Assembly: GCA_913055905.1 (NCBI GenBank)
Contig: CAJXLB010000005.1
Location: 62,001-126,000 of the forward strand
Direction: 5' to 3'
DNA from: an uncultured Winogradskyella sp.
Lineage (GTDB): Bacteria; Bacteroidota; Bacteroidia; Flavobacteriales; Flavobacteriaceae
Length of the DNA stretch: 64,000 nucleotides
A program made the translations under genes and the position numbers. Positions within the stretch are counted from its first letter, which is position 1, and every line of letters begins with the position of its first letter. Shown piece by piece: positions 6,656 through 38,596 of this stretch. A model generated the notes under the pieces. That model was not told the DNA's origin, ran no database searches, and was given only the letters and a program-made list of their open reading frames with translations.

Positions 6656-8284
6656 TTAACGTTTAAGGATTTTCTTATTGATGCTCCCTTTGTCACTATG
6701 AATTCTTAAGAAGTAAACGCCAGCCGTTAACCCTTGCAAACTTACCTGATTTCTATTTCTAATCTCATTTATTTTATTACCATTGATATTAAAGACTTCA
6801 ATACTTTCAATGGGTTGCTCTGTCTCTATAAAAACAATGTCTTCCGTTGGGTTTGGAAACAGTTTCAAACTTGTTAATTCAAATTCAGATGCGCTCAGGA
6901 TAGTTTGACAATCTGAAATGTCCGGATTGTTTTCTAGAGGAGGGTCAGGGTTGGATAAGTCCCTTCCTATAAAAGCAGGGTAATCAGGGCCATATTTTGT
7001 AGCTCTAAACGCAAAATTGTTTGGTGGTATAGGGTCGCCCTGATCATAAACCGTACCGTCAGCATTGCTAATAGGTGAGGCATATTCCCAAACAATAGTG
7101 TTGGAGTTGTCTATTTCAAAGAAAAAGCCTTCCCGCCCTTCACATATTAATATATTTCCGTTTGGCAATTGCTGGCCACTGCTTACAATAGCTGAGAAAA
7201 ACTCCGAATCTGAAGTAGGTACCGTTTCTGGATATCTGAAGGATACGAGTTCTGGTCCAAAAGCTGTTCCAGGCGTGTAGCTGTAATTACCATTACTATC
7301 AACTGGTGGCTCAATGATTAGAACTTCAGAATACGAAGGTGAACGGTCTATACCGTTATTAAAGACCATGATTTTTCTTTCATTGGGAAAGCCACTAGGG
7401 ATATAATACGGTGTATGCTGCCCAAATAATGTTCTATCCAGTGCCGTACCCTGGTCGTAAGCTTGTGGATTTCCCCATCTGTAAAGTAAATCTCCTGCAG
7501 GACCTGCTGCTTCTGCCGTGGTAGTATTGTGGTCAATTACCCAAAGTTCACTCCATCGGCGCGAGCTGATGACTATTTGGTCAAATTCCTCATCGTATTG
7601 AATAGAGTTGATGTGAAGCCAATTATTTTCGGCAGGCCAACCATTTAAAAAATTAATATCTATTTTACCTGGATTATCGGCCACAACACCAAAATTATCT
7701 TTAGTAGCATCAAAATCTTGTATAATATGGTCGGTAACATTCCATTCCCAGACAATATTACCTCCATTGGACCCAATAGGCTCTACTTCATAGATCCTTT
7801 CATTATAGAGTTCTCCATCATCCAATAAATTAGGGTCTCTCCCAGCTTGAATGGCGTCAGCTTCACTTACAACTGTTGCCGAGAGGATTAGGACATTACC
7901 ATTAGGCATGGGAAAGATATCGTGATGCTGTCTAGAGTCATCAGAGCTATCTATCCAAGACCATATGACGTTACCATCCCAGTCAAAGAGTTCAATAATA
8001 CCACCGCTACCTGGAATAGTAACAGGATTGCTGCTTTGTATAAATCGGCCTGCTCGTAAAAGGTTGCCATTGGGTAGTAAATACACCGAGTTGCCAGGTA
8101 GGTAGCTGCTGTTCCAGGAATTAATTACCTGTCCGCAATTATCAATAAGATAAGCGTCAGTATGGGTAGAAAACAGGGTGTAGCCTTCATAAACATCTGG
8201 CGTAACTGATATGGTGCCAACGGTGTTTTGAGCAAATGAACAATATGTAAATAAAACCAAAAGTGCGTAGATAATTCTCTTCAT
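6656..8284 (-). CDS. Arylsulfotransferase-like beta-propeller protein exported by T9SS
   Basis: The 542-residue protein has a signal peptide (MKRIIYALLVLFTYCSFAQ) when started at ATG 8284; a longer reading from 8320 would bury it. The body shows repeated 'PNGNxLI' and tryptophan-rich blades typical of arylsulfotransferase (ASST)-like propellers, with histidines in SRQHHDIFPMPNGN, NNWLHINSIQY and FGQHTPYY that match the conserved His positions. The last ~80 residues are a type A T9SS sorting domain (LKLFPNPTEDIVFIET ... GVYFLRI ... KKILKR). The substrate is unknown; it is probably released or cell-surface attached. Confidence 0.85.
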   Translation of the reverse strand: MKRIIYALLVLFTYCSFAQNTVGTISVTPDVYEGYTLFSTHTDAYLIDNCGQVINSWNSSYLPGNSVYLLPNGNLLRAGRFIQSSNPVTIPGSGGIIELFDWDGNVIWSWIDSSDDSRQHHDIFPMPNGNVLILSATVVSEADAIQAGRDPNLLDDGELYNERIYEVEPIGSNGGNIVWEWNVTDHIIQDFDATKDNFGVVADNPGKIDINFLNGWPAENNWLHINSIQYDEEFDQIVISSRRWSELWVIDHNTTTAEAAGPAGDLLYRWGNPQAYDQGTALDRTLFGQHTPYYIPSGFPNERKIMVFNNGIDRSPSYSEVLIIEPPVDSNGNYSYTPGTAFGPELVSFRYPETVPTSDSEFFSAIVSSGQQLPNGNILICEGREGFFFEIDNSNTIVWEYASPISNADGTVYDQGDPIPPNNFAFRATKYGPDYPAFIGRDLSNPDPPLENNPDISDCQTILSASEFELTSLKLFPNPTEDIVFIETEQPIESIEVFNINGNKINEIRNRNQVSLQGLTAGVYFLRIHSDKGSINKKILKR

Positions 8285-8351
8285 TGGTGTTGAGCAAATT
8301 TTTTTGGCCAAGTTAATCATTATTTGGCTAATAGTATATAAATAAACACTC

Positions 8352-10031
8352 TTAGAAAGTCGCTGTCAAGCTAACGTGTACTTTTGAGTCTGAAAGTCTA
8401 AAGGGACTATTGTCTCTTTTGCCACTAGAATAATTAAGTCTAAAGAGGCCTGCATTGGTGAGTAACCCTAAACCAAAGCCAAAGCCAAAAAGTTTCTCTT
8501 TGGTTTCGGTGATTTGATTTTCAAAATAAGCAGCATCAAAGACACTATGAACGTATATAGATGAGCTGAGGCGATAACGGTATTCGGTATTTACAACACC
8601 AAAAAGATCTGCTACGATACTATTTTCTTCAAATCCTCTTATGGAATTGATACCTCCAAATCTATAAAGTTCATTATCCAAATAGTTGTCTGAGGCCAAA
8701 TAGGCGCCATTCAGTCTCATAAACAGGCTATTTCTCTCATTTAAGTTAAAAATCTTGTAAGTATTAAGACTTACCATATTCTGCGAAATGTTTTCATTGG
8801 CATTTTCCCTTTGACCTGTTCCAAGATTTAAATCCAACAAAAAGTTAATAGGGAATAAAGGGTCATAAAATTGAGGGCGAATAAATTGATACCCGAAGGT
8901 TAAAAAGTTGGACGAGTAATCGTTTAAGATTGCCGAGTCGTTCTCCAGTAGGTTGCTTGAATTTGTTAAACTGAAACCAAGGCCAATTTTTTGCTGTGCA
9001 TTAATCTGATAGTTTACGAGGGCGTGTTGGTTGGCATTGACAAAAGTAGAGTCTTTTCTAAAGATATTTAGACCAGCTTCAATACCAATAGGCAATTTAA
9101 AAAGGTAAGGCAGCTCAAGATTAACCCTAAAGGTTTGTTGGTCTATCTCATCGCTTTTATAGAATAAATTGAGCGTTTCACCATAGTTAAGATTATTGAT
9201 TAGTCTAAGGTCCAAGTAGCCATCAAACTCCAACTTATTGGTTTGCTCATCGGTGCCAAAGCCTAAAAATCCATCAAAATTATTGGTTTTGTTTTTTTCA
9301 ATATATAAGTACAGCGTAGTTGAGTCCGTTGTAAATAAAACTTCAGGGTCTCTAATCTTTTTAGCGAATCTCAAGTTTTCCAAAAGGTCAATTTTTTCTT
9401 TGATTTCCGTGAGGTTGAATTCTTGGCCACGCTTCAGTTTTAAGTAGTGTTTTATGAAGGATTCTGGGAACTTTTCATAACCCTTAACTATAATATTATT
9501 TATCCGTCTTTTTTTATTGGTAGTGATTTTTAAATCAGCCCTAATCGCCTGGTCGTTGAATTTTTCAATATTTATAAGCTGAAGTGACGAAAATGGATCA
9601 CCTTGCTCAGCCATTTTCCTATTCAAGACATCAAGCACGTTCTCTAGGTCGTTTAGATCCAAAATAAATTGACCATCTTTCGGTTCTATATTAACAAAGT
9701 TCAATAGGTCATCATTGAACGTATGGTCGTAAAAAATAGTTATGCGTCGCCGCTGTGCTCCAAGGATTAGATTTGCCTTAAACAAGCTATCATTGGTTTT
9801 TGAAATTTCTTTGACAAAGGCATCGATATATCCGCTGCGCCATAATTTTTTGATGAAAGTGCTAACTTCACTCTCCAAGCTCTTATATGTGTCAAAACGC
9901 TTTATATAGCCTAAGGAATCTATAAGACTGGATTTAGGTTTGTCCTCAGCAACTATTTTTAGTTCAAGGCTTTGAGACGAGCACAAGTTTGCCAGTAAAA
10001 TAATGGTAATAATGGAAAATGCCCTTAACAA
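8352..10031 (-). CDS. BamA/TamA-like outer-membrane protein (POTRA plus Omp85 barrel)
   Basis: About 560 residues: a signal peptide (LLRAFSIITIILLANLC), POTRA-like repeats in the N-terminal half (for example RRINNIIVKGYEKFPESFIKHYLKLKRG, split here as RRINNIIVKGYEKF then PESFIKHYLKLKRG), and a C-terminal 16-stranded-type barrel with YRFGGINSIRGFEEN, the Omp85 'RGF' lid-lock motif, and a terminal Phe. It probably inserts or exports outer-membrane proteins or lipids. No ATG precedes the signal peptide. A TTG at 10070 is possible, but a TAnnTTTG element at 10075-10068 overlaps that start, so I prefer TTG 10031. It diverges from rpsL. Confidence 0.8.
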   Translation of the reverse strand: MLRAFSIITIILLANLCSSQSLELKIVAEDKPKSSLIDSLGYIKRFDTYKSLESEVSTFIKKLWRSGYIDAFVKEISKTNDSLFKANLILGAQRRRITIFYDHTFNDDLLNFVNIEPKDGQFILDLNDLENVLDVLNRKMAEQGDPFSSLQLINIEKFNDQAIRADLKITTNKKRRINNIIVKGYEKFPESFIKHYLKLKRGQEFNLTEIKEKIDLLENLRFAKKIRDPEVLFTTDSTTLYLYIEKNKTNNFDGFLGFGTDEQTNKLEFDGYLDLRLINNLNYGETLNLFYKSDEIDQQTFRVNLELPYLFKLPIGIEAGLNIFRKDSTFVNANQHALVNYQINAQQKIGLGFSLTNSSNLLENDSAILNDYSSNFLTFGYQFIRPQFYDPLFPINFLLDLNLGTGQRENANENISQNMVSLNTYKIFNLNERNSLFMRLNGAYLASDNYLDNELYRFGGINSIRGFEENSIVADLFGVVNTEYRYRLSSSIYVHSVFDAAYFENQITETKEKLFGFGFGLGLLTNAGLFRLNYSSGKRDNSPFRLSDSKVHVSLTATF

Positions 10032-10067
10032 GTTATAACGGTAATTTTGCCGAAGCAGTTTGATATG

Positions 10068-10075
10068 CAAACGTA
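10068..10075 (-). promoter_or_regulatory. Candidate -7 element of the BamA/TamA-like gene
   Basis: The reverse strand reads TACGTTTG, matching TAnnTTTG. Transcription would begin near 10062, which rules out a translation start at 10070 and favours the TTG at 10031. No convincing -33 TTTG is seen. Confidence 0.45.
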
Positions 10076-10144
10076 AAAAATACCAACATATTTAATGGCC
10101 GTAAACAAATTGAATTATTTCTTTGGAAAATAAATTATCAACTA

Positions 10145-10175
10145 TTTGAATTATAAATATATATTTCTACCTTTG
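10145..10175 (+). promoter_or_regulatory. Promoter of the str/S10 ribosomal-protein locus
   Basis: TTTG at 10145-10148, 19 bp, then TACCTTTG at 10168-10175 is a full match to the Bacteroidota -33 TTTG / -7 TAnnTTTG consensus with ideal spacing. The start site is expected near 10180, about 40 nt before rpsL. Confidence 0.78.
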
Positions 10176-10178
10176 CAG

Positions 10179-10194
10179 CCCTCAAAAGTGAGGG
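10179..10194 (+). other. Hairpin at the 5' end of the rpsL leader
   Basis: CCCTCA (10179-10184), loop AAAG, TGAGGG (10189-10194) form a perfect 6-bp stem at or just after the predicted transcript start. It could stabilise the message or serve in ribosomal-protein feedback; neither is shown by the sequence alone. Confidence 0.5.
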
Positions 10195-10220
10195 TTAGTA
10201 AAATTTTATAGCAAAAATAT

Positions 10221-10595
10221 ATGCCAACAATTTCACAATTAGTACGAAAAGGAAGAGCCAAAATAACCAAGAAGAGTAAATCGGCTGCTTTGGATTCGTG
10301 TCCTCAAAGACGTGGTGTATGTACTCGTGTTTATACAACGACGCCTAAAAAACCTAATTCAGCAATGCGTAAGGTAGCAAGGGTACGTTTAACAAACGGT
10401 AAAGAGGTTAACGCATACATTGGTGGAGAAGGACATAACCTCCAAGAGCACTCGATAGTATTGGTTAGAGGTGGAAGGGTAAAGGACTTGCCAGGTGTAA
10501 GGTATCACGTTGTTCGTGGTGCTCTGGATACTGCTGGTGTGGCCGATAGAACACAGCGTAGATCAAAATACGGTGCAAAACGCCCTAAAAAGTAA
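10221..10595 (+). CDS. rpsL: 30S ribosomal protein S12
   Basis: The 124-residue decoding-centre protein contains the invariant blocks [20 protein letters not shown] and [20 protein letters not shown]. Both lysines classically mutated in streptomycin resistance (in TPKKPN and GRVKDL) are present as Lys, so the allele looks wild type. First gene of the locus, 22 bp ahead of rpsG. The leader holds a small hairpin behind a strong promoter. Confidence 0.99.
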
Positions 10596-10617
10596 TTTAA
10601 AACTTTAAGAAGAAGAC

Positions 10618-11094
10618 ATGAGAAAAAGACAAGCGAAAAAAAGACCGCTTTTACCAGATCCACGATTTAACGACCAGTTAGTAACGAGGTTCGTTAATAT
10701 GATGATGTGGGATGGTAAAAAGTCCGTGGCGTTCAAAGTATTCTACGATGCTATAGATATCGTCGATGAGAAAAAGAACAATGACGAGAAAACGGCACTA
10801 GAATTATGGAAAGATGCATTATCTAACGTTATGCCTCACGTTGAAGTGAGAAGTAGACGTGTAGGTGGAGCAACATTTCAAATTCCAATGCAGATTCGTC
10901 CAGACAGAAAAGTTTCAACTGCTATGAAATGGCTGATTAGTTTTGCTCGCAAGAGAAACGAAAAATCTATGGCTCAAAAATTAGCTGCTGAAATTTTAGC
11001 TGCTGCTAAAGAAGAAGGTGCTGCTGTTAAGAAACGTGTAGATACGCATAGAATGGCAGAAGCGAACAAAGCATTCTCACACTTTAGATTTTAA
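10618..11094 (+). CDS. rpsG: 30S ribosomal protein S7
   Basis: The 158-residue primary 16S 3'-domain assembly protein includes [16 protein letters not shown] and the typical C terminus [16 protein letters not shown]. Length matches the family. In E. coli S7 represses the str operon by binding the rpsL-rpsG spacer; here that spacer is only 22 bp and shows no comparable structure, so regulation must differ. fusA follows after 5 bp. Confidence 0.99.
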
Positions 11095-11099
11095 TTAAA

Positions 11100-13229
11100 A
11101 TGGCACAAAGAGATTTAAAATTTACTAGAAATATAGGTATTGCAGCACATATTGATGCTGGTAAGACAACTACAACAGAGCGAATCCTTTATTACACTGG
11201 TGTATCGCATAAAATTGGTGAGGTGCATGATGGAGCAGCTACGATGGACTGGATGGAGCAAGAGCAGGAAAGAGGGATTACCATTACCTCTGCTGCAACG
11301 ACTTGTACTTGGAACTTTCCATTGGAAAATGGTCAGCCCACTCCAGAAACTAAAGGTTATCACTTTAATATTATAGATACTCCCGGTCACGTGGATTTTA
11401 CGGTTGAGGTTAACCGTTCTTTACGTGTACTAGATGGATTAGTCTTTTTGTTTAGTGCAGTTGATGGTGTAGAACCACAATCTGAAACAAACTGGAGATT
11501 AGCAGACAACTATAAAGTTCCTCGTATAGGATTCGTAAACAAAATGGACCGTCAAGGGTCTAACTTTATGGCTGTTTGTCAGCAGGTTAAAGATATGTTA
11601 GGGTCTAACGCCGTACCAATTGTAATGAATATTGGTGAAGAGGCAGACTTTAAAGGAATTGTTGATTTAGTGAAGAACAGAGCTATTATCTGGCACGATG
11701 AAACACTAGGTTCAACATTCGACGTTGTCGATATACCTGAAGAATTAAAAGAAGAGGCATCTCAGTTAAGAGCTCAATTAATAGAGGAGGTTGCAACTTA
11801 TGATGAAAATCTTCTTGAAAAATTTATGGAAGATGAAGATTCTATTACAGAAGAAGAAGTGCATGCTGCACTAAGAGCTGCTGTAATGGATATGTCAATT
11901 ATCCCAATGATTTGTGGTTCGGCTTTCAAAAATAAAGGAGTACAGTTCTTGTTAGACGCTGTATGCCGTTACTTACCATCACCAGTAGATAAGGAAGCTA
12001 TTGTTGGTACAGAGCCAGGAACAGACAAAGAAATTGCTAGAAAGCCAGATGTAAAAGAGCCTTTCTCTGCTTTAGCTTTTAAAATTGCTACAGACCCATT
12101 CGTAGGTCGTTTGGCATTCTTTAGAGCTTATTCTGGACGTTTAGATGCTGGATCTTACGTTTTAAACAATAGATCAGGTAAAAAAGAACGTATCTCTAGA
12201 ATTTATCAAATGCATTCCAACAAGCAAAACGCTATAGAATACATTGAAGCTGGAGATATCGGTGCAGCCGTTGGTTTTAAGGATATTAAAACTGGAGACA
12301 CCTTATCAGATGAGAAGCATCCTATTGTTTTGGAATCTATGGACTTCCCAGATCCAGTAATTGGTATCGCTGTTGAGCCTAAGACTAAGGCAGACGTTGA
12401 TAAATTGGGTATGGCATTAGCTAAATTGGCTGAAGAGGATCCTACCTTTACAGTTAGAACAGATGAAGCTTCTGGCCAAACCATTATTTCTGGTATGGGT
12501 GAGCTTCACTTAGATATTATCGTAGACCGTCTTAAGCGCGAGTTTAAGGTAGAGGTTAACCAAGGTCAACCTCAAGTGGAATATAAAGAGGCGATTACAC
12601 AACGTGCTGAGCACAGAGAGGTTTATAAAAAGCAATCTGGTGGACGTGGTAAATTTGCTGACATTGTATTTACACTAGAGCCAGCTGAGGAAGGAAAGCA
12701 AGGACTTGAGTTCGTTTCCGAAATCAAAGGTGGTAATGTACCTAAAGAATTTATTCCTTCTGTTGAAAAAGGATTTAAAATGGCAATGGTTAATGGACCA
12801 TTAGCAGGTTATGAGATTGATGCCATGAAAGTGACATTAACTGATGGGTCTTACCACGATGTAGATTCGGACCAGTTGTCTTTTGAGTTAGCGGCTAAAT
12901 TAGGATTTAAATCTGCAGCTAAGGCTGCAAAGGCTGTAATCATGGAGCCAATCATGAAGTTAGAGGTTTTAACTCCAGAGGAATACATGGGAGACATTGT
13001 TGGTGACTTAAACCGTCGTCGTGGTCAAGTAAATAATATGAGCGACCGTGCCGGTTCTAAAGTTGTAAAAGCTGAGGTTCCTTTATCTGAGATGTTCGGT
13101 TATGTTACATCATTAAGAACATTATCATCAGGTAGAGCAACATCAACTATGGAATTCTCACACTATGCTGAAACACCTGCCAATATCTCTGAAGAGGTTA
13201 TTAAAGCAGCTAAAGGAGTTGAAGCTTAA
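11100..13229 (+). CDS. fusA: Translation elongation factor G
   Basis: The 709-residue GTPase drives ribosomal translocation. GTP-binding motifs are complete: G1 [14 protein letters not shown]2 [12 protein letters not shown]3 DTPGHVDF, G4 NKMD, G5 GSAFKNKG. Domain IV shows [11 protein letters not shown] and domain [17 protein letters not shown]. tuf does not follow, unlike the enterobacterial str operon; rpsJ starts 11 bp later, fusing the str and S10 operons. Confidence 0.99.
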
Positions 13230-13240
13230 ATCTTAAGGAA

Positions 13241-13546
13241 ATGAGTCAAAAAATTAGAATAAAATTAAAGTCATATGATCATAACTTGGTAGACAAGTCT
13301 GCCGATAAGATCGTAAAAACGGTGAAAAGTACTGGCGCTGTAGTAACAGGTCCGATTCCATTACCAACGCACAAAAAGATTTTTACAGTATTGCGTTCAC
13401 CACACGTTAACAAGAAGTCTAGAGAGCAGTTCCAATTGAGTTCTTACAAAAGGCTGTTGGATATTTACTCATCGTCTTCTAAAACCATCGATGCTTTAAT
13501 GAAACTTGAATTACCAAGTGGAGTTGAAGTTGAGATTAAGGTGTAA
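13241..13546 (+). CDS. rpsJ: 30S ribosomal protein S10
   Basis: The 101-residue protein has the S10 core [38 protein letters not shown] and the C-terminal [11 protein letters not shown]. It contributes to the 30S head and, in other bacteria, joins NusB in antitermination. It is separated from rplC by a 140-bp gap that contains a hairpin-T-run, whereas in most bacteria these two genes are nearly adjacent. Confidence 0.99.
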
Positions 13547-32733: not shown

Positions 32734-33612
32734 CTAGTCGCTTTTCCGTTTTCCAAAACCATAAGTGTTTTGGCCAATAAAGTCCTTAGGGAATTTGTCA
32801 TCACCTTTAAATCCAATCTCAATGGTACCACTATCTTCTGGCACATAATCAGTCTTAAATATGTAATCCCAAAGACTAAGACTTATGCCATAATTTACAC
32901 CGTGTTTTCCTTCGGGTAGTTTATAGGCATGGTGATATAAATGCATTACCGGATTATTAAAAATATATTTAAGTGGTCCCCAGGTAATTTTAATGTTAGC
33001 ATGGTTTAAATGACCTATAGCTATGGCTACGAAGTGAACAATATAAGCTTGCTCTGGCTCAAAACCACCTAAGATCATTACCCCAAAAGTCTTTAAGGGT
33101 TTATACAAAATGTTTTCCATCCAATGGAATCTTAAATGCGCAGCAAAGCCCATTTCCTTAACGCTATGGTGTACCTTGTGAAAATTCCAAAGGAACCTGT
33201 ATCTGTGAAGTAGAACATGCGTAAACCATTGTACAAAATCCAAAATAATAAAGAAGACCAATAATTGGAGGCCAGGTGCCCAGTTGGACATATCAATTAT
33301 AGCTAAGCTTTTGGCTGTTATATTGACCTCTGCGAAAAGAAGTTCAAGAATTTTATAAACACCGCTAATAACTATAGCGAAAATGAAAAAATTAAAAAAC
33401 ATGTAGAAGGCGTCCAGCCAGAAGTCTTTCCTAAAGATGGATTGATCTTTTCTCCACGGAAAGATGATTTCGAGCAGCCATACAATTAACGAAATTGCAA
33501 TTAGGCCCCAAAAATAGTTAGTGTACCATGGGACTTCAAAAATTATCGATTTCCAAGTCCAGTTAAGTGTGCCTTCAAAGGCACTTACAAATGCATCTAG
33601 ATATTTTTCCAT
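32734..33612 (-). CDS. Sterol desaturase / fatty-acid hydroxylase-family membrane protein
   Basis: The 292-residue protein has about four membrane segments and the histidine clusters of the di-iron hydroxylase superfamily: HVLLHR, NFHKVHHS, GHLNHANI and HLYHHAY. Such enzymes use O2 and a di-iron centre to hydroxylate or desaturate lipids. Fourteen bases downstream of the sulfurtransferase gene, so probably the last gene of the sulfite-dehydrogenase transcript, though a functional link is not evident. Confidence 0.88.
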   Translation of the reverse strand: MEKYLDAFVSAFEGTLNWTWKSIIFEVPWYTNYFWGLIAISLIVWLLEIIFPWRKDQSIFRKDFWLDAFYMFFNFFIFAIVISGVYKILELLFAEVNITAKSLAIIDMSNWAPGLQLLVFFIILDFVQWFTHVLLHRYRFLWNFHKVHHSVKEMGFAAHLRFHWMENILYKPLKTFGVMILGGFEPEQAYIVHFVAIAIGHLNHANIKITWGPLKYIFNNPVMHLYHHAYKLPEGKHGVNYGISLSLWDYIFKTDYVPEDSGTIEIGFKGDDKFPKDFIGQNTYGFGKRKSD

Positions 33613-33625
33613 TTCTTTTCTTTTT

Positions 33626-34537
33626 TTAAAACGTTTCTATTTCTATAGGTAAATCATTATGATAACTCCATTCTACCCATGACCCATCATAATTTTTTAC
33701 ATTCTCAAAACCTAACAACTGTGTCAATACAAAAGTTGTATGTGCTGAGCGCACACCACTGTGGCAATATAAAATTATAGGGTCTTGTTTTTGTAGGTTT
33801 AAAAAAGCATAGTTTTTTCCAATCTCTTCTTTACTTTTAAACCTTTTATCGCCATTAAAATTAATATTGTTGGCCCAATCTACATGAATACTATTTGGTA
33901 TTCTACCGGCTCTTGAAGCTCCCTTTTTCAGTTGTCTACCTGAATACTCGTCTAAAGACCTTGCATCTATTACTGCAGGCTTGTCCTTTAAAGCTTCGAC
34001 CAGTTCTTCTTTTGAGATATGGTATTTCATGCTTGGCGTTCCTTTAAGTTTAAATTGAGTGGGTTGCCATTCAGGTTTTTCAGTGGTTAGTTCTCCTTTG
34101 TGTTCGAGCCAAGCAGTAAAACCACCGTTAAGTAACTTTACATTATCAAAATTATAATTCTGTAAAATCCACCAGAGTCTAGCTGCCTCACAAACACCAT
34201 TGTCATCATAAATTACAATGGTATCATCAGAGCTGATACCGAGTTGTCCAAAAAGTTGTTCAATTTGTTCTTTCCTAGCCATCATACCACCATAGGGATA
34301 ATTTACATCTTCTATAGCTTTTCTGGTAATATGAATTGCATTCCTAATATGGCCCTGATTATAAAGTGTATCAGCTCTAAAATCTAAGATTTTGGTATTA
34401 GGTTGATTTAGGAGATCGGCTAACTGCCAAGACTCAATGAGATAGTCCTTTTTTAAGGATACAACTTCTTCGGGCTTCCCTTTATTACAGGAGAAAAGCA
34501 CCAACATGATGAGTGTTATGTTAATTCTCCAACTCAT
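33626..34537 (-). CDS. Lipoprotein sulfurtransferase with two rhodanese domains
   Basis: The ~303-residue product has a lipoprotein signal peptide (INITLIMLVLFSC, lipid-Cys 17 from ATG 34537) and tandem rhodanese domains. The C-terminal one has the active loop YCHSGVRSAHT with catalytic Cys at about 258 and matches 3-mercaptopyruvate/thiosulfate sulfurtransferases. The N-terminal domain carries Asp at the Cys position (YDDNGVCEAARLWW), as usual for the inactive half. It overlaps the cytochrome gene by 17 bp, indicating an operon. It probably moves sulfane sulfur in the periplasm and may supply or remove the sulfite-dehydrogenase substrate. Confidence 0.9.
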   Translation of the reverse strand: MSWRINITLIMLVLFSCNKGKPEEVVSLKKDYLIESWQLADLLNQPNTKILDFRADTLYNQGHIRNAIHITRKAIEDVNYPYGGMMARKEQIEQLFGQLGISSDDTIVIYDDNGVCEAARLWWILQNYNFDNVKLLNGGFTAWLEHKGELTTEKPEWQPTQFKLKGTPSMKYHISKEELVEALKDKPAVIDARSLDEYSGRQLKKGASRAGRIPNSIHVDWANNINFNGDKRFKSKEEIGKNYAFLNLQKQDPIILYCHSGVRSAHTTFVLTQLLGFENVKNYDGSWVEWSYHNDLPIEIETF

Positions 34538-34994
34538 ACCATTCAATTCCAGAAAGCGCCATCCGTCTTCCCTTGGCGACAGGCGGATAGTTTTTTACTA
34601 AATAGTTAACTATAATTTCTTGGTTTTTTCCCAAATCCCATAAATTCTGTGTTTCCTGCATCCATTTAATGGTAGTGTTCCATCGTTCTTCATTCATCCT
34701 ATTCTGAGTAATTATCTTAGCAGAATGGCAGTTGGTGCAATTATTAACTACAACCATTAAACCTTCATCATCTTTTAATCCAGTTCTAACATGTATACCA
34801 TCTACAATTAAGTCCTCATCAACTTCTTCGGGTACAGCAGCAACTGTATCAGAATTACCGCTAAAATTGAATGCACTAGGATTGTTTGCGTAATAAACTA
34901 ATGCGCCACCTGCCAAAACAAACAATGAAAATAAGACCATTAACAATCTGTAAATGGCTTTTATTTGTTCATAGAATGCTTTTTGATTTTCCAT
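34521..34994 (-). CDS. Membrane-anchored monohaem cytochrome c (sulfite dehydrogenase subunit)
   Basis: The 157-residue protein has one N-terminal membrane helix (about residues 14-36) and a periplasmic domain with a single haem c site NNCTNCHS (C86, C89, H90); M112 in KWMQETQ is a likely sixth ligand. Its start overlaps the stop of the sulfite-oxidase-type gene by one base. By analogy with SorAB it should accept electrons from the molybdenum subunit and pass them to the respiratory chain. The gene order is the main basis for the partner assignment. Confidence 0.88.
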   Translation of the reverse strand: MENQKAFYEQIKAIYRLLMVLFSLFVLAGGALVYYANNPSAFNFSGNSDTVAAVPEEVDEDLIVDGIHVRTGLKDDEGLMVVVNNCTNCHSAKIITQNRMNEERWNTTIKWMQETQNLWDLGKNQEIIVNYLVKNYPPVAKGRRMALSGIEWYELEN

Positions 34995-36214
34995 TAGTTC
35001 ACTTTAATTGCTATTCTATGGCAAGCATTGTTTAAATATCCTTTGGGATTCCAACCTGGTAGTACCATCGGTTGGGCTTTCCCTTGGCTATCTGTAGCTT
35101 TAGCCCAAACTTCATAATACCCTTTTTGCGGAAAATCTACGGTTGCTGAAAAGTGCTGCCAGGCTAATCTATTTGCTGGCGACTCTAAATTACAGCTCTT
35201 CCATGTTGCGCCAAAGTCTATGGAATAATCCACCTTTGCAACCTCTAACTCTCCAGCCCAGGCATGTCCTCGTATATTTAATTTTTGTCCTTTTTTAATC
35301 ATAGCACCAGACTTAGGGTAGGTGATTAATGACTTAACAGGCATAGATTCTATAATGCACATGTCTTCGTCTTTCACTTTTTCTCCCGGAGCCACAGGCT
35401 CGCAAGGCACTCTATAGGCTGTGCCATTCATTTTGGCACCATCATGTACTTTATTTCGGATACTAATGCGATTAACCCATTTACCCGATACTGAAGCGGG
35501 CCAGCCACCAGCAACTAATCTAAGCGGATAGCCATGAATTAATGGTATATCATTGCCATTCATCTTAAATGCTAACAAGGTCTCTTCTTGAAGCGCTTTG
35601 GCCATCGGACATCCTCTGGAAATGGCTTCCTTGTTTGGGTCTTTACTGAGATGCTGATCTATGGCATGGAATCCTATATAAACGGCATCGTTTTTAATTC
35701 CCGTATCTTCTAGAACATCCTTTAACCTCACTCCTGTCCATGAGGCACAGTGTACAGCTCCTACTTTCCACTGATTACCTTTTGCAGGAGGGTCAAATTC
35801 GGCCCTACCATTTCCGCCACATTCAATGGTCAATTGATAGGTGTGGTGCTCAAATTTTGATTTTAGCTCTTCTAGTGTATATGTTTTCTTTTGTTTTGCA
35901 GACTCTCCGTCGATGGTTAAAGTCCAAGTTTTAGCATCAATATCTTCGGGGACTAGACCATTATTTCTTACAAACATGGAAGAATTTGGCGTGATTTTGT
36001 CATCTAACAAATGCGCCAGAGACTCTATGTTCCATGGCCTGTCGTTAAGGACAATCATTTCCTTGTTTTTGTTAAACATCTTAAAGGGGTCAGGGTCTTG
36101 CAAAGCTAATGGCTTGTAACCTTCGTACATTTTGGAGCCAAAGACAATCTCTGCACCGATTAATGCTGCAAAGGAACTTAACGTAGTTTTTTTGACAAAA
36201 TCTCTTCTCTTCAA
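34994..36214 (-). CDS. Sulfite oxidase-family molybdopterin oxidoreductase (SorA/SoxC-like), Tat exported
   Basis: The 406-residue protein begins with a twin-arginine signal (MKRRDFVKKTTLSSFAALIG). The molybdopterin domain has the cofactor-ligating cysteine in TIECGGNGRAEF (C132) and CPMAKALQEETLLAF / GYPLRLVAGGWPA; the C-terminal Ig-like dimerisation domain starts near SMPVKSLITYPKSG. Such enzymes oxidise sulfite to sulfate and pass electrons to cytochrome c. The start codon is TTG 36214, the only one that keeps the RR motif at the N terminus. A palindromic operator lies 62 bp upstream. Substrate is inferred from family; sulfoxide or other substrates are possible. Confidence 0.9.
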   Translation of the reverse strand: MKRRDFVKKTTLSSFAALIGAEIVFGSKMYEGYKPLALQDPDPFKMFNKNKEMIVLNDRPWNIESLAHLLDDKITPNSSMFVRNNGLVPEDIDAKTWTLTIDGESAKQKKTYTLEELKSKFEHHTYQLTIECGGNGRAEFDPPAKGNQWKVGAVHCASWTGVRLKDVLEDTGIKNDAVYIGFHAIDQHLSKDPNKEAISRGCPMAKALQEETLLAFKMNGNDIPLIHGYPLRLVAGGWPASVSGKWVNRISIRNKVHDGAKMNGTAYRVPCEPVAPGEKVKDEDMCIIESMPVKSLITYPKSGAMIKKGQKLNIRGHAWAGELEVAKVDYSIDFGATWKSCNLESPANRLAWQHFSATVDFPQKGYYEVWAKATDSQGKAQPMVLPGWNPKGYLNNACHRIAIKVN

Positions 36215-36265
36215 AACAAAAAAATTAAGGCAGTTGAGTGTAACTATCTAAAATAAAAACTATTT

Positions 36266-36275: not shown

Positions 36276-36293
36276 ATGTAACAATAGTTACAT
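36276..36293. promoter_or_regulatory. Palindromic operator ATGTAAC-AATA-GTTACAT before the sulfite dehydrogenase gene
   Basis: A perfect 7-4-7 inverted repeat. It overlaps the stop codon of the THEP1-type gene (36288-36290) and sits 62 bp before the TTG start of the sulfite-oxidase-type gene. The same palindrome with one changed spacer base occurs at 37843-37860. The size and symmetry fit a dimeric helix-turn-helix regulator; a Crp/Fnr-type protein is a reasonable guess from the TGTAAC half-site. Confidence 0.78.
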
Positions 36294-36779
36294 TTCTTTA
36301 AGTTGGGATAGATTTTCTGTGGTCAACTCCCTTGGGCTTGATAAATCGTAATGTTTTTTAATGGCTTCAATTAGGGAATTACGTATAACCAATATGGCAT
36401 GAAGTTGGGGATTTTGTTTTGTCTTTTTAATCAATTCTTTTGCAGAGGCATGAAGTCCTTGGTTTTTTAGTTCCAACTTCCCTAATTCATCAATGACAAT
36501 GTATCCTGATAGGTGTTCTTTTACATTCTTTTTTATAATGGCATTGGCTTGGTCAAAAGAGGATGTGTAAAAATGATACCGACCTATGGAAATGACATTT
36601 TTTTCGTTAGGAAGGGCTTCCATTGCAAATCTTGCTTTTGTTTTAATGTTATAGAAAAACCTTTTCTTCCTATTGTCAACAGGGCTTAATATACCATAAA
36701 CATAAGGTTTCTGTTTCACCCAATTTAGAAGTGCAGTGCTTTTTCCGCTTTGTATGTCTCCAACGAGGAGGTATATCAT
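36288..36779 (-). CDS. THEP1-type P-loop NTPase
   Basis: The 163-residue protein has Walker A GDIQSGKST (7-15) and Walker B YIVIDELGKLEL (D97, E98, G100), the layout of the THEP1/DUF265 nucleoside-triphosphatase family. Physiological roles for this family are poorly known. Its start overlaps the stop of the upstream membrane-protein gene (ATGA), so the two are translated as a pair. The neighbouring molybdenum enzyme invites a cofactor-related role, since some related NTPases lie beside molybdenum genes; this is speculation. Confidence 0.82.
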   Translation of the reverse strand: MIYLLVGDIQSGKSTALLNWVKQKPYVYGILSPVDNRKKRFFYNIKTKARFAMEALPNEKNVISIGRYHFYTSSFDQANAIIKKNVKEHLSGYIVIDELGKLELKNQGLHASAKELIKKTKQNPQLHAILVIRNSLIEAIKKHYDLSSPRELTTENLSQLKEM

Positions 36780-37798
36780 TGTTCTTGTAGCTTAAAATGA
36801 AAACTATAAACAATACTTCTAGAAATAAAATACTGTATTCTTTTTAGGCCTTTAAGCTCTTTGCTTTCTTCCCAAGCATATAGAATAATAGATTTTAAGT
36901 AAGGTAAAATCTCTAAGGTAAGTTGAATATCAGATTGGTATTTTGAACCTTTTTTCCTTAAAACTTTATTGAGGACTTTTAGAATTACAGGGCCAACTAT
37001 GAAGTACCATATTCCAATGACTATTAAACTTCTAGCGATTAAATATAAGCCTTTAGTCCAACTATTAGAGTTATCGTTGAAAACGAATAAAGATACCAAT
37101 ATCAACACTAAAATGATTAGCCAAAACAAAATAGGTTTTCTTTTGGACCGAGATGTCTTCTTTTCTCCCAAGATTGAAGTCTTGCTTATTATAGGATTAA
37201 AATTGTCCGGAACTTTTATAGTGTGTACGAGTTGGTAAACTCTAAATATTAAAACTCCAACAAATAAACCGGCCAAGGCGTAAAATGAGAGAAATGCTAA
37301 AATTAAGTGTTTTGAGGAGAGCCCAAGTTCTATAAAATTTAGTTTAAGACTTATCCACGAAATATAGTTGTCAATGGCTTCCCAAAGTGATTGTCCGTAA
37401 ATTATGGTTAGTGTGAGAAGTTTTTGAAGAGCCGATTCTAAAAAGGTTGTGACAGCAAAAACAATAATAGATAAGGCATTTACAGAAAGTAATCTAAATA
37501 GTACGATACCCAAAAGACCTTGGAATGAGACGGCGAAATATGCTGGTAAAGGAGAATGCGGACTTACACTAAGTTTTACTATCAGCACAATACTGAGTGC
37601 TTTAATAACACTGGTTTGCACATGTTTTGCATAAGAGGCAATGAGCGTCACCATTAATATAGAAACCCCTCCAACTATGATTCCTGTAAATGGAGAACTG
37701 AAGGCGTGCATAAAACCTCCGAGTCCACATTCGTTAAGAGCCCAGAGTGCCGTAAGCCTATTAATAATTAAACTGTTATTCCTTTGAGGTGATTCCAA
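36776..37798 (-). CDS. Seven-helix membrane protein of unknown function, paired with THEP1-type NTPase
   Basis: The 340-residue protein has hydrophobic segments at about 36-55, 63-79, 87-106, 108-120, 164-190, 222-241 and 253-275, and a soluble basic tail. Conserved-looking motifs are RLTALWALNECGLGGFMHAF, PFTGIIVGG, PAYFAVSFQGLLG and ESALQKLLTLTIIYG. I do not recognise a characterised family; an ECF-like substrate-binding membrane subunit is one idea, the NTPase partner being the reason. The start is TTG 37798, since a TAA immediately precedes it and no ATG occurs until residue 30. Divergent operator at 37843-37860. Confidence 0.72.
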   Translation of the reverse strand: MESPQRNNSLIINRLTALWALNECGLGGFMHAFSSPFTGIIVGGVSILMVTLIASYAKHVQTSVIKALSIVLIVKLSVSPHSPLPAYFAVSFQGLLGIVLFRLLSVNALSIIVFAVTTFLESALQKLLTLTIIYGQSLWEAIDNYISWISLKLNFIELGLSSKHLILAFLSFYALAGLFVGVLIFRVYQLVHTIKVPDNFNPIISKTSILGEKKTSRSKRKPILFWLIILVLILVSLFVFNDNSNSWTKGLYLIARSLIVIGIWYFIVGPVILKVLNKVLRKKGSKYQSDIQLTLEILPYLKSIILYAWEESKELKGLKRIQYFISRSIVYSFHFKLQEQ

Positions 37799-37842
37799 TT
37801 AATAAAATTCCTTCAAAATTTAGAGTGCTATTATCAGTTGTA

Positions 37843-37860
37843 ATGTAACAAAAGTTACAT
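37843..37860. promoter_or_regulatory. Palindromic operator ATGTAAC-AAAA-GTTACAT in the divergent intergenic region
   Basis: Perfect 7-4-7 inverted repeat between the start codons at 37798 (reverse) and 37913 (forward). On the forward side a degenerate -7 (TAGCTTTC, 37881-37888) and on the reverse side TAAATTTTG (37822-37814) would each put the palindrome centre about 40 bp from a start site, the classic class II activator distance. Both -7 calls are imperfect. Confidence 0.78.
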
Positions 37861-37912
37861 AACCAAACGTTCAAAAATAATAGCTTTCTCCTTATTTCTA
37901 ACTCAAAGTATT

Positions 37913-38596
37913 ATGAAACAAAAAGATTTTGAAACTAAGGTAGTTGGTTGGGCCTTTTTAATGGCTGCAGCTTTATTGTGGATAGGCTGGGGCTTATCAC
38001 CGCATCACATTGGCGAATATATACAAGCTTCAGATTTTGAAAAGATAGGTGAAAGTGTTTGGACATGGATATGGATGTATCGTATTCACATATTCGGATG
38101 GGTCACTTTAGGTATTGCAGTGTTTGCCTTAGTCTCGGTTACGGCTAGAAGGCCTTTTCGCGTTTTAATTTTACCAGGCGCTGGCATGATAATTATAGGA
38201 ACCTTCACTTTGGCCATAGCCAATGCTTACTTCTACAATTTTGGTGCTTGGGGCGTAGGGCAGACAGCTGGTAAATCTGTGGCAGAAATAAATGCATTTA
38301 TGCATGACATCTTATTCACCAACCAGTATGTTACATGTTTCATTAGATTTGGAAGGATATTTTCTGGTGTAGGATTCGTCCTTCTAGGTTGGGCTTTTTT
38401 GAAATGGCAAATGGTTAATAAATTATTAGGTGCCTTCACCGTACTTTTTGGCTTAGCTGCAATGGGTATTATTTTAGCCATACCAGATAATTTTGAAATC
38501 TATAAACCACTCTTCCACGTGAAAGTAGTCTGGGCCATAATAATGGGTGTAACCTTCTTGAGGTCTGGCGTAAATTTACCTGAACAAAAAGCTTAA
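37913..38596 (+). CDS. Six-helix membrane protein of unknown function
   Basis: The 227-residue protein has about six membrane segments (11-28, 58-77, 84-107, 147-165, 171-190, 203-216). Histidines lie at or near membrane boundaries (H31-H32 in GLSPHHIGEY, H59 in RIHIFGW, H131 in FMHDILF, H202 in LFHVKVVW), so haem or metal binding is conceivable but not shown. I do not recognise a named family. It is transcribed divergently from the membrane-protein/NTPase pair across the shared palindrome, which suggests co-regulation with the sulfite-dehydrogenase cluster. Confidence 0.75.
   Translation: MKQKDFETKVVGWAFLMAAALLWIGWGLSPHHIGEYIQASDFEKIGESVWTWIWMYRIHIFGWVTLGIAVFALVSVTARRPFRVLILPGAGMIIIGTFTLAIANAYFYNFGAWGVGQTAGKSVAEINAFMHDILFTNQYVTCFIRFGRIFSGVGFVLLGWAFLKWQMVNKLLGAFTVLFGLAAMGIILAIPDNFEIYKPLFHVKVVWAIIMGVTFLRSGVNLPEQKA

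Follow-up and report, generated by a model that had tools for sequence, protein, structure and literature searches.

In the window analyzed here, a stretch of 64,000 nucleotides from an uncultured Winogradskyella sp. (contig CAJXLB010000005.1, positions 62,001 to 126,000), two palindromes with identical arms were found. One lies upstream of a SorA-like gene for a sulfite-oxidase-type molybdoenzyme (operator 1), the other between the divergent genes of two membrane proteins of 340 and 227 amino acids, here named Mem340 and Mem227 (operator 2). The sequence comparisons described below indicate that the palindromes are quite probably operators of an activator of the Crp/Fnr family, which in flavobacteria would switch on the oxidation of both sulfide and persulfide, to sulfite and sulfate. 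That these operators define a regulon is very likely. Its likely regulator is a protein of 211 amino acids encoded elsewhere in the same genome (211-aa Crp), which would bind the palindromes and activate the adjacent genes. It is plausible, with about even chances, that the cysteines of this protein may sense persulfide.

Palindromes and promoter geometry

An earlier note on this DNA had described two 7-4-7 palindromes that differ in one spacer base and have no further copy in the window. This was confirmed: the 7-base arms are identical, the spacers are AATA (operator 1) and AAAA (operator 2), and exact copies of ATGTAAC-N4-GTTACAT in the window are limited to these two. With up to two mismatches, four matches were found in the window compared to 2.9 expected from shuffling. 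Operator 1 overlaps the stop codon of the nucleoside triphosphatase (NTPase) gene, a detail absent from the earlier note. In the whole genome of 2.95 Mb, the motif TGTAACN4GTTACA was found in three exact copies, not in the hundreds that had been named beforehand as an argument against a regulon; a backward-read control gave one copy. With one mismatch, 13 copies were found compared to 12 in the control. Because of these small differences motif counts alone are weak evidence, and the exact-copy count was dropped as proof of a regulon. The surroundings of the copies and their conservation are more informative.

The third exact copy (C10:3996) has a TauE/SafE gene on one side and, starting 70.5 bp from its centre on the other, a gene of the persulfide dioxygenase (PDO) type. 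The protein encoded by the latter combines a metallo-beta-lactamase domain with two rhodanese domains, which is the PDO architecture. At a distance of 2 kb, a one-mismatch palindrome precedes a gene of the sulfide:quinone oxidoreductase (SQR) type (229 bits with the SQR type III model, under the cut-off of 525). Independent copies of the palindrome thus fall on sulfur oxidation genes.

For the analysis of the promoter geometry, 56 site-to-gene pairs were aligned, in which a palindrome with at most one mismatch lies 40 to 130 bp before a homologue of a gene of the own genome. The pairs comprise 51 from relatives and 5 from the own genome, and divergent sites may count twice. At exactly +29.5 from the palindrome centre, a TA-n-[TC]-TTT box was identified (T 82%, A 84%, T 93%, T 93%, T 73%), which had played no part in choosing the 56 sites. 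It resembles the −7 element of the Bacteroidota, TAnnTTTG. By the customary promoter numbering, the palindrome would thereby be positioned near −41.5, the geometry of a class II activator.

Palindrome and box were combined into the pattern TGTAACN4GTTACA-N21-TANNTTT. With up to two mismatches, it gave 16 matches (both strands) at 13 palindromes of the own genome compared to one in the control, and operator 2 fits it exactly in either direction. A weight matrix derived from 39 sites in other genomes, all at other genes, gave scores of 20–30 for the two window palindromes over both directions and less than 10 for the next best position in the 64 kb, the palindrome itself supplying much of the score.

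Eleven of the 13 palindromes are located before or between genes that could belong to the regulon. Besides the PDO, TauE and SorA genes and the divergently transcribed genes of the window, these are a peroxiredoxin gene, for which a later start was assumed because the listed open reading frame begins upstream of the site, cydAB with two sites (CydB over its NCBIfam cut-off, CydA under it), a gene for an SQR-like flavoprotein, a TolC-type gene followed by RND efflux genes as judged by eye, and a thioredoxin-family gene (Thioredoxin_9) 42.5 bp from its site. The one-mismatch site at C3:38409 is flanked by a TonB receptor gene and, divergent from it, an ABC uptake gene accompanied by a periplasmic binding protein; this site was counted as doubtful since its distances to the two starts (505 bp and 10 bp) are off the usual geometry. 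Of the two remaining sites, one is inside a gene and one lies 158.5 bp before an aldehyde-dehydrogenase-like gene (by eye) with a poor box. The SQR site has three mismatches to the combined pattern. The cydAB sites suggest that respiration through cytochrome bd is part of the regulon, which probably takes in the cytochrome bd genes.

The order 227-aa gene, operator, Mem340, NTPase, operator, SorA, SorB is kept in three other genomes, namely Winogradskyella pelagia (L178), a Flavobacteriaceae metagenome-assembled genome (L179) and Aureitalea sp. L0-47 (L180). In all three, both palindromes were found with 0–1 mismatch. In the alignment of these loci, the GTAAC and GTTAC arms are unchanged and most of the non-coding flanks are variable. 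Of the 19 relatives whose SorA orthologue has an upstream region, 11, plus the own genome, have a site there unmatched by any of 300 shuffles, located 55–75 bp from the start in these relatives; three partial SorA matches (L125-L127) were left out of this test.

Mem227 and the Mem340-NTPase pair

Mem227 was identified in five genomes of a sample of 100 from the family, the own one included, and all five also contain SorA. A site 55.5–68.5 bp before its start was found in each of the five, and L178-L180 have one as well. In G005, a single palindrome between SorA and the 227-aa gene could serve both. Mem227 is, by these comparisons, a consistent candidate member of the regulon.

Mem340 occurs in 3 of the 100 family genomes. 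In a scan with one genome per GTDB species it was found in 91 relatives, and 80 of these 91 loci were evaluated. The NTPase is present at 72 of the 80 loci. A molybdoenzyme or maturation gene lies in the stretch at 63 (a raw count without a random-gene background), comprising XdhC (38), an XDH-type Mo subunit (39), FdhD (15) and SorA (3). The other 17 loci, some of them on short contigs, have no such gene. The NTPase homologue of G039 carries a fused MobA-like domain. These contexts are best explained if the pair assists molybdoenzymes and was recruited to the sulfur regulon at loci where its partner is a sulfite dehydrogenase. Since it neighbours, above all, molybdoenzymes of several kinds, its tie to sulfur would be local and regulatory. 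The proposal in the earlier note that three uncharacterised proteins are linked to sulfur oxidation is therefore consistent with the data for Mem227, and holds for Mem340 and the NTPase in this local sense only. For two membrane proteins that lack a Pfam family, these are the first functional leads, Mem227 to sulfite dehydrogenase and Mem340 to molybdoenzymes generally.

On balance, control of Mem340 by operator 2 is favoured. The box toward Mem340, TAAATTTT, stands at the exact class II distance with zero mismatches, the Mem340 start is 53.5 bp from the operator centre, and a T-rich box occupies the Mem340-side place in all four genomes. These findings make it rather unlikely that operator 2 serves Mem227 alone, with Mem340 and the NTPase inserted between the promoters and outside its control. 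Such an insertion would fit G005, G034 and G061, where the 227-aa gene lies directly opposite SorA, lacks the pair in between and is preceded by a site. It would also fit the weaker −7 box toward Mem340 in L178-L180 and the finding that, of the 80 loci, only the three SorA-type ones have an operator between Mem340 and a divergent 227-aa gene. The same three are the only loci of the 80 with palindromes flanking the pair on both sides; elsewhere, a one-mismatch palindrome was found about 330 bp before Mem340 (L227) and one inside Mem340 (L244).

Candidate regulator and its signal

Matches to the cNMP-binding domain were found in seven proteins of the own genome. The most likely activator among them is the 211-aa Crp at C3:274655-275290, whose gene is followed by two YeeE/YedE-type genes and the second PDO gene. 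With 40.0 bits for PF00027 (cut-off 27.5) and 50.1 bits for PF13545 (cut-off 27), it belongs to the Crp/Fnr superfamily. Of the 100 family genomes, own included, 84 have a match at E ≤ 1e-20. In relatives, 40 neighbourhoods of the gene were examined. Within about 7 kb, 37 of them contain a YeeE/YedE, TauE, PDO, rhodanese or SQR homologue (L091 by a weak SQR match only); in the other three (L081, L084, L100) none of these homologues was found. At least one site with 0–1 mismatch was detected in 27 of the 40 neighbourhoods, mostly before TauE, YeeE, PDO, rhodanese or SQR genes. In G032, an exact palindrome precedes a SorA gene of 78% identity a few kb from crp.

The occurrence of sites in the 100 genomes was compared with that of the regulator. 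The 77 genomes with a clear orthologue of the 211-aa Crp (own included) contain 604 combined sites with up to two mismatches, compared to 227 in the control. In the 23 genomes without a clear orthologue (16 without match and 7 with a match weaker than 1e-40), 39 sites were found compared to 51. The difference in site excess between the two groups is significant (p = 1e-7, Mann-Whitney on differences), so that the excess appears confined to genomes with the orthologue. The backward control was used because 12 of the 16 genomes without match are smaller than 2.7 Mb.

Sites that are not beside crp were sampled as well. From the 0–1-mismatch matches listed, 21 strong sites in 20 regions were picked by eye, without G002:C12:116413, G060:C1:222686, G079:C53:149 and the SorA/Mem227 rows of G034, G026 and G086; in broken assemblies, a site on a separate contig could still be near crp. 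Six of the sites precede rhodanese-domain genes (two PDO-type) and one CydA. The others precede thioredoxin-like (two), DUF983 (two), DUF302 (one), di-haem cytochrome c peroxidase (one), TolC-type (one) and methyltransferase (one) genes and four genes without Pfam match; two sites are without a gene.

The residues of the regulator were compared in 46 orthologues (the own protein, the 40 and 5 more). In the recognition helix, Arg183, Val184 and Arg188 do not vary and agree with NtcA (Arg-Val and Arg); the CRP residues are Arg-Glu and Arg. Cys78 and Cys84 are likewise invariant (46 of 46), a conserved cysteine pair as in persulfide-sensing regulators, and together with Cys85 they are the only cysteines of the own protein. 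The three residues sit in the beta-roll segment that contacts cyclic AMP (cAMP) in CRP. At the place of the CRP residue E72, the glutamate that contacts cAMP, all 46 orthologues have a methionine (Met80). Therefore, cAMP-CRP was rejected as the type of regulator; the score with PRK11753 is 55.3 bits (cut-off 266). FNR was rejected since its 4Fe-4S cluster needs four cysteines and only Cys78, Cys84 and Cys85 are present. The best PDB relatives by sequence are the Crp/Fnr protein 3dv8 (E 9e-17) and NtcA (E about 1e-14). Two cysteines of 3dv8 (DMCLLSASC) align by sequence with Cys78 and Cys84, and the motif may therefore extend beyond the Bacteroidota. For the TGTAA preference of a CRP with Val at position 181 no printed source was found, and it was not used.

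In the proposed mechanism, a dimer of the 211-aa Crp would bind GTAAC-N4-GTTAC centred about −41.5 and recruit RNA polymerase at the TAnnTTTG −7 box. Operator 1 would drive sorAB and the genes of the sulfurtransferase and the hydroxylase; operator 2 would drive Mem227 in one direction and probably the Mem340-NTPase pair, as a molybdoenzyme helper, in the other. Cys78, with Cys84 or Cys85, may sense a persulfide or polysulfide derived from sulfide.

BigR and SqrR are regulators of the ArsR type. Elsewhere, FisR, BigR, SqrR and CstR govern the same kinds of genes as those found here. In Acinetobacter, FisR, a sigma54 activator, and BigR control genes of PDO, SQR, TauE and YeeE/YedE (PMC7315123). 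CstR, which is CsoR-like, SqrR and the FisR of Cupriavidus are described as sensing through disulfide or polysulfide links between cysteines (PMC9774590). The candidate described here differs from these in being a Crp/Fnr-type protein with class II promoters. NtcA is described as binding GTAN8TAC centred about −41.5 and responding to 2-oxoglutarate and nitrogen status (PMC3898017). GTAAC-N4-GTTAC is a box of this type with the +29.5 geometry, and the 211-aa Crp has an Arg-Val-x-Val-x-Arg recognition helix, which is similar to NtcA. The conserved cysteines and the sulfur regulon differ from NtcA, and so does the score of 61.7 bits with TIGR03697, under the cut-off of 244.95. Among the literature matches listed, a part of those in the open-access literature, no Crp/Fnr-type regulator of sulfide or persulfide was found for the Bacteroidota; subscription journals were outside this scope, and the result is no proof of absence. 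Among the same matches, no sulfide-responsive regulator of flavobacteria was described and none of the spelled-out motif strings was found.

Taken further, the 211-aa Crp may represent a new class of reactive-sulfur sensor. It would be a Crp/Fnr activator that reads persulfide through C-x5-CC at the cAMP place of CRP, recognizes DNA in the manner of NtcA and, across the Flavobacteriaceae, drives the complete route from sulfide to sulfate along with the sulfide-tolerant cytochrome bd. One lineage would have added the undescribed membrane protein and THEP1-type NTPase pair, which would serve molybdoenzymes of three families, perhaps in molybdenum or cofactor delivery. This wider proposal is tentative and its chances are slightly below even. 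Flavobacteria are common marine bacteria, which encounter sulfide at particles and sediments. The site model yields a regulon ready for use, names the cysteines of a candidate sensor and connects sulfide with cytochrome bd.

It is unlikely that the same operators and the same Crp respond to another signal, such as oxygen, nitric oxide, general thiol oxidation or sulfite, with the sulfur genes placed within a respiratory switch. Crp/Fnr proteins commonly sense oxygen or nitric oxide, and the conserved cysteines could detect any thiol-reactive species. The genes of cytochrome bd, DUF983, di-haem cytochrome c peroxidase and thioredoxin-like proteins under matching sites would also agree with such a switch. 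The sulfur-gene homologues near crp in 37 of the 40 neighbourhoods argue against it, as does the number of cysteines, which is too small for the cluster of FNR.

With seven cNMP-binding-domain proteins in the genome, the operators might belong to another Crp/Fnr paralogue, and the 211-aa Crp would then be near the sulfur genes by chance. This is very improbable, as the site excess tracks the presence of the 211-aa Crp orthologue and many relatives have sites right next to its gene. Furthermore, of five aligned proteins (L006 and L008 were left out), only the 211-aa Crp has Arg-Val in the recognition helix, compared to Thr-Glu in L004 and L005 and Pro-Val in L007 and L009. That the palindromes are a product of chance or another element, such as a terminator hairpin or a repeat, would fit the genome-wide motif counts close to those of the control and is next to negligible, being already contradicted by the conservation of position, spacing and box across genera.

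Several findings weigh against an activator of sulfide oxidation with these operators. The −7 boxes of the window are imperfect (TATTTTAG, TAGCTTTC), and L178-L180 carry TTA instead of TAn in the box toward Mem340. No site was found before the crp gene itself in the own genome. A 0–1-mismatch site is also missing from 13 of the 40 neighbourhoods, including those of several of the closest orthologues (L066, L069, L070 and L071). Cys85 is found in 44 of the 46 orthologues and replaced by V or F in two. For some recurrent targets (DUF983, di-haem cytochrome c peroxidase) a connection to sulfur is not evident, and the backward control corrects only partly for the small size of the 12 genomes mentioned above. 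The earlier note had counted a lack of the palindrome at orthologous loci as evidence against its reading. No clear site was found before SorA in 8 of the 19 relatives (G001, G080, G050, G056, G006, G075, G025, G030), where this objection applies; it does not apply to the other 11. The G080 site is borderline (6 of 300 shuffles), and G050 has no Crp. The proposal of that note, one regulon under a dimeric Crp/Fnr-type regulator, is nevertheless supported by the third copy at the PDO gene, the fixed geometry, the presence of both palindromes in three genomes and the site excess only with Crp. Its estimate of six or seven genes was too low, as the regulon is larger.

Genes of the window

The positions of the operators, the probable −7 boxes and the neighbouring genes are given in Table 1.

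Table 1. Operators, probable −7 boxes and genes in the window
Feature	Position	Strand	Remarks
Palindromic operator 1, ATGTAAC-AATA-GTTACAT	36276..36293	.	centre 36284.5; would serve the SorA promoter
Palindromic operator 2, ATGTAAC-AAAA-GTTACAT	37843..37860	.	centre 37851.5; between divergent genes
Probable −7 box, SorA promoter, TATTTTAG	36248..36255	-	begins 29.5 bases from operator 1 centre
Probable −7 box toward Mem340, TAAATTTT	37815..37822	-	29.5 bases from operator 2 centre
Probable −7 box toward Mem227, TAGCTTTC	37881..37888	+	29.5 bases from operator 2 centre
SorA-like sulfite-oxidase-type molybdoenzyme	34994..36214	-	TTG start; Tat-type RRDF signal by eye
c-type cytochrome, SorB-like, with CTNCH	34521..34994	-	NF052246 SorB 30.2 bits, under cut-off 93
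Two-domain rhodanese / mercaptopyruvate-sulfurtransferase-type protein	33626..34546	-	PF00581, two stretches
Fatty-acid-hydroxylase-family membrane enzyme	32734..33612	-	PF04116; last gene of putative operon
THEP1-type P-loop NTPase	36288..36779	-	PF03266 45 bits; molybdoenzyme-associated
Mem340, 340-aa polytopic membrane protein	36776..37798	-	TTG start; molybdoenzyme-associated
Mem227, 227-aa polytopic membrane protein	37913..38596	+	divergent partner of sulfite dehydrogenase

Sequence and domain matches agree with the earlier calls of a sulfite-oxidase-type protein, a cytochrome c, a sulfurtransferase and a THEP1 NTPase. The SorA-like protein contains the Oxidored_molyb (PF00174, 172.1 bits) and Mo-co_dimer (PF03404, 75.2 bits) domains, both above cut-off, and it matches sulfite oxidases in the PDB. 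The tandem of a Mo enzyme, with its Tat-type signal, and a c-type cytochrome is similar to SorAB. The pair differs from it in scoring under the NCBIfam equivalog cut-offs (248.6 of 600 bits for SorA and 30.2 of 93 for SorB).

The genes of Mem340 and the NTPase overlap by 4 bases. For Mem340 and Mem227, no Pfam or NCBIfam match was found up to E 0.1. The predicted structures, of fair quality, gave no PDB match with E <0.18 for Mem340 (predicted local distance difference test, pLDDT, 80.9) and none better than E 0.29 for Mem227 (pLDDT 78). A PDB relative of the NTPase could not be found by sequence up to E 0.1.

A homologue of the fatty-acid-hydroxylase-family gene was found behind SorAB in 13 of 19 relatives and is an unexplained partner of the sulfite dehydrogenase. 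The two PDO genes of the own genome share one architecture; a strong site belongs to one of them, a weak site (9.7) to the other (PDO2). In another genus (G014), a gene of the Thioredoxin_9 family has a matching site 50.5 bp before its start. In the region C4:127000-146000, at offsets 7900–13300, five matching sites were found in a gene cluster that is all on one strand and comprises the peroxiredoxin gene, cydA-cydB (two sites), the SQR-like flavoprotein gene and the TolC-type and efflux genes.

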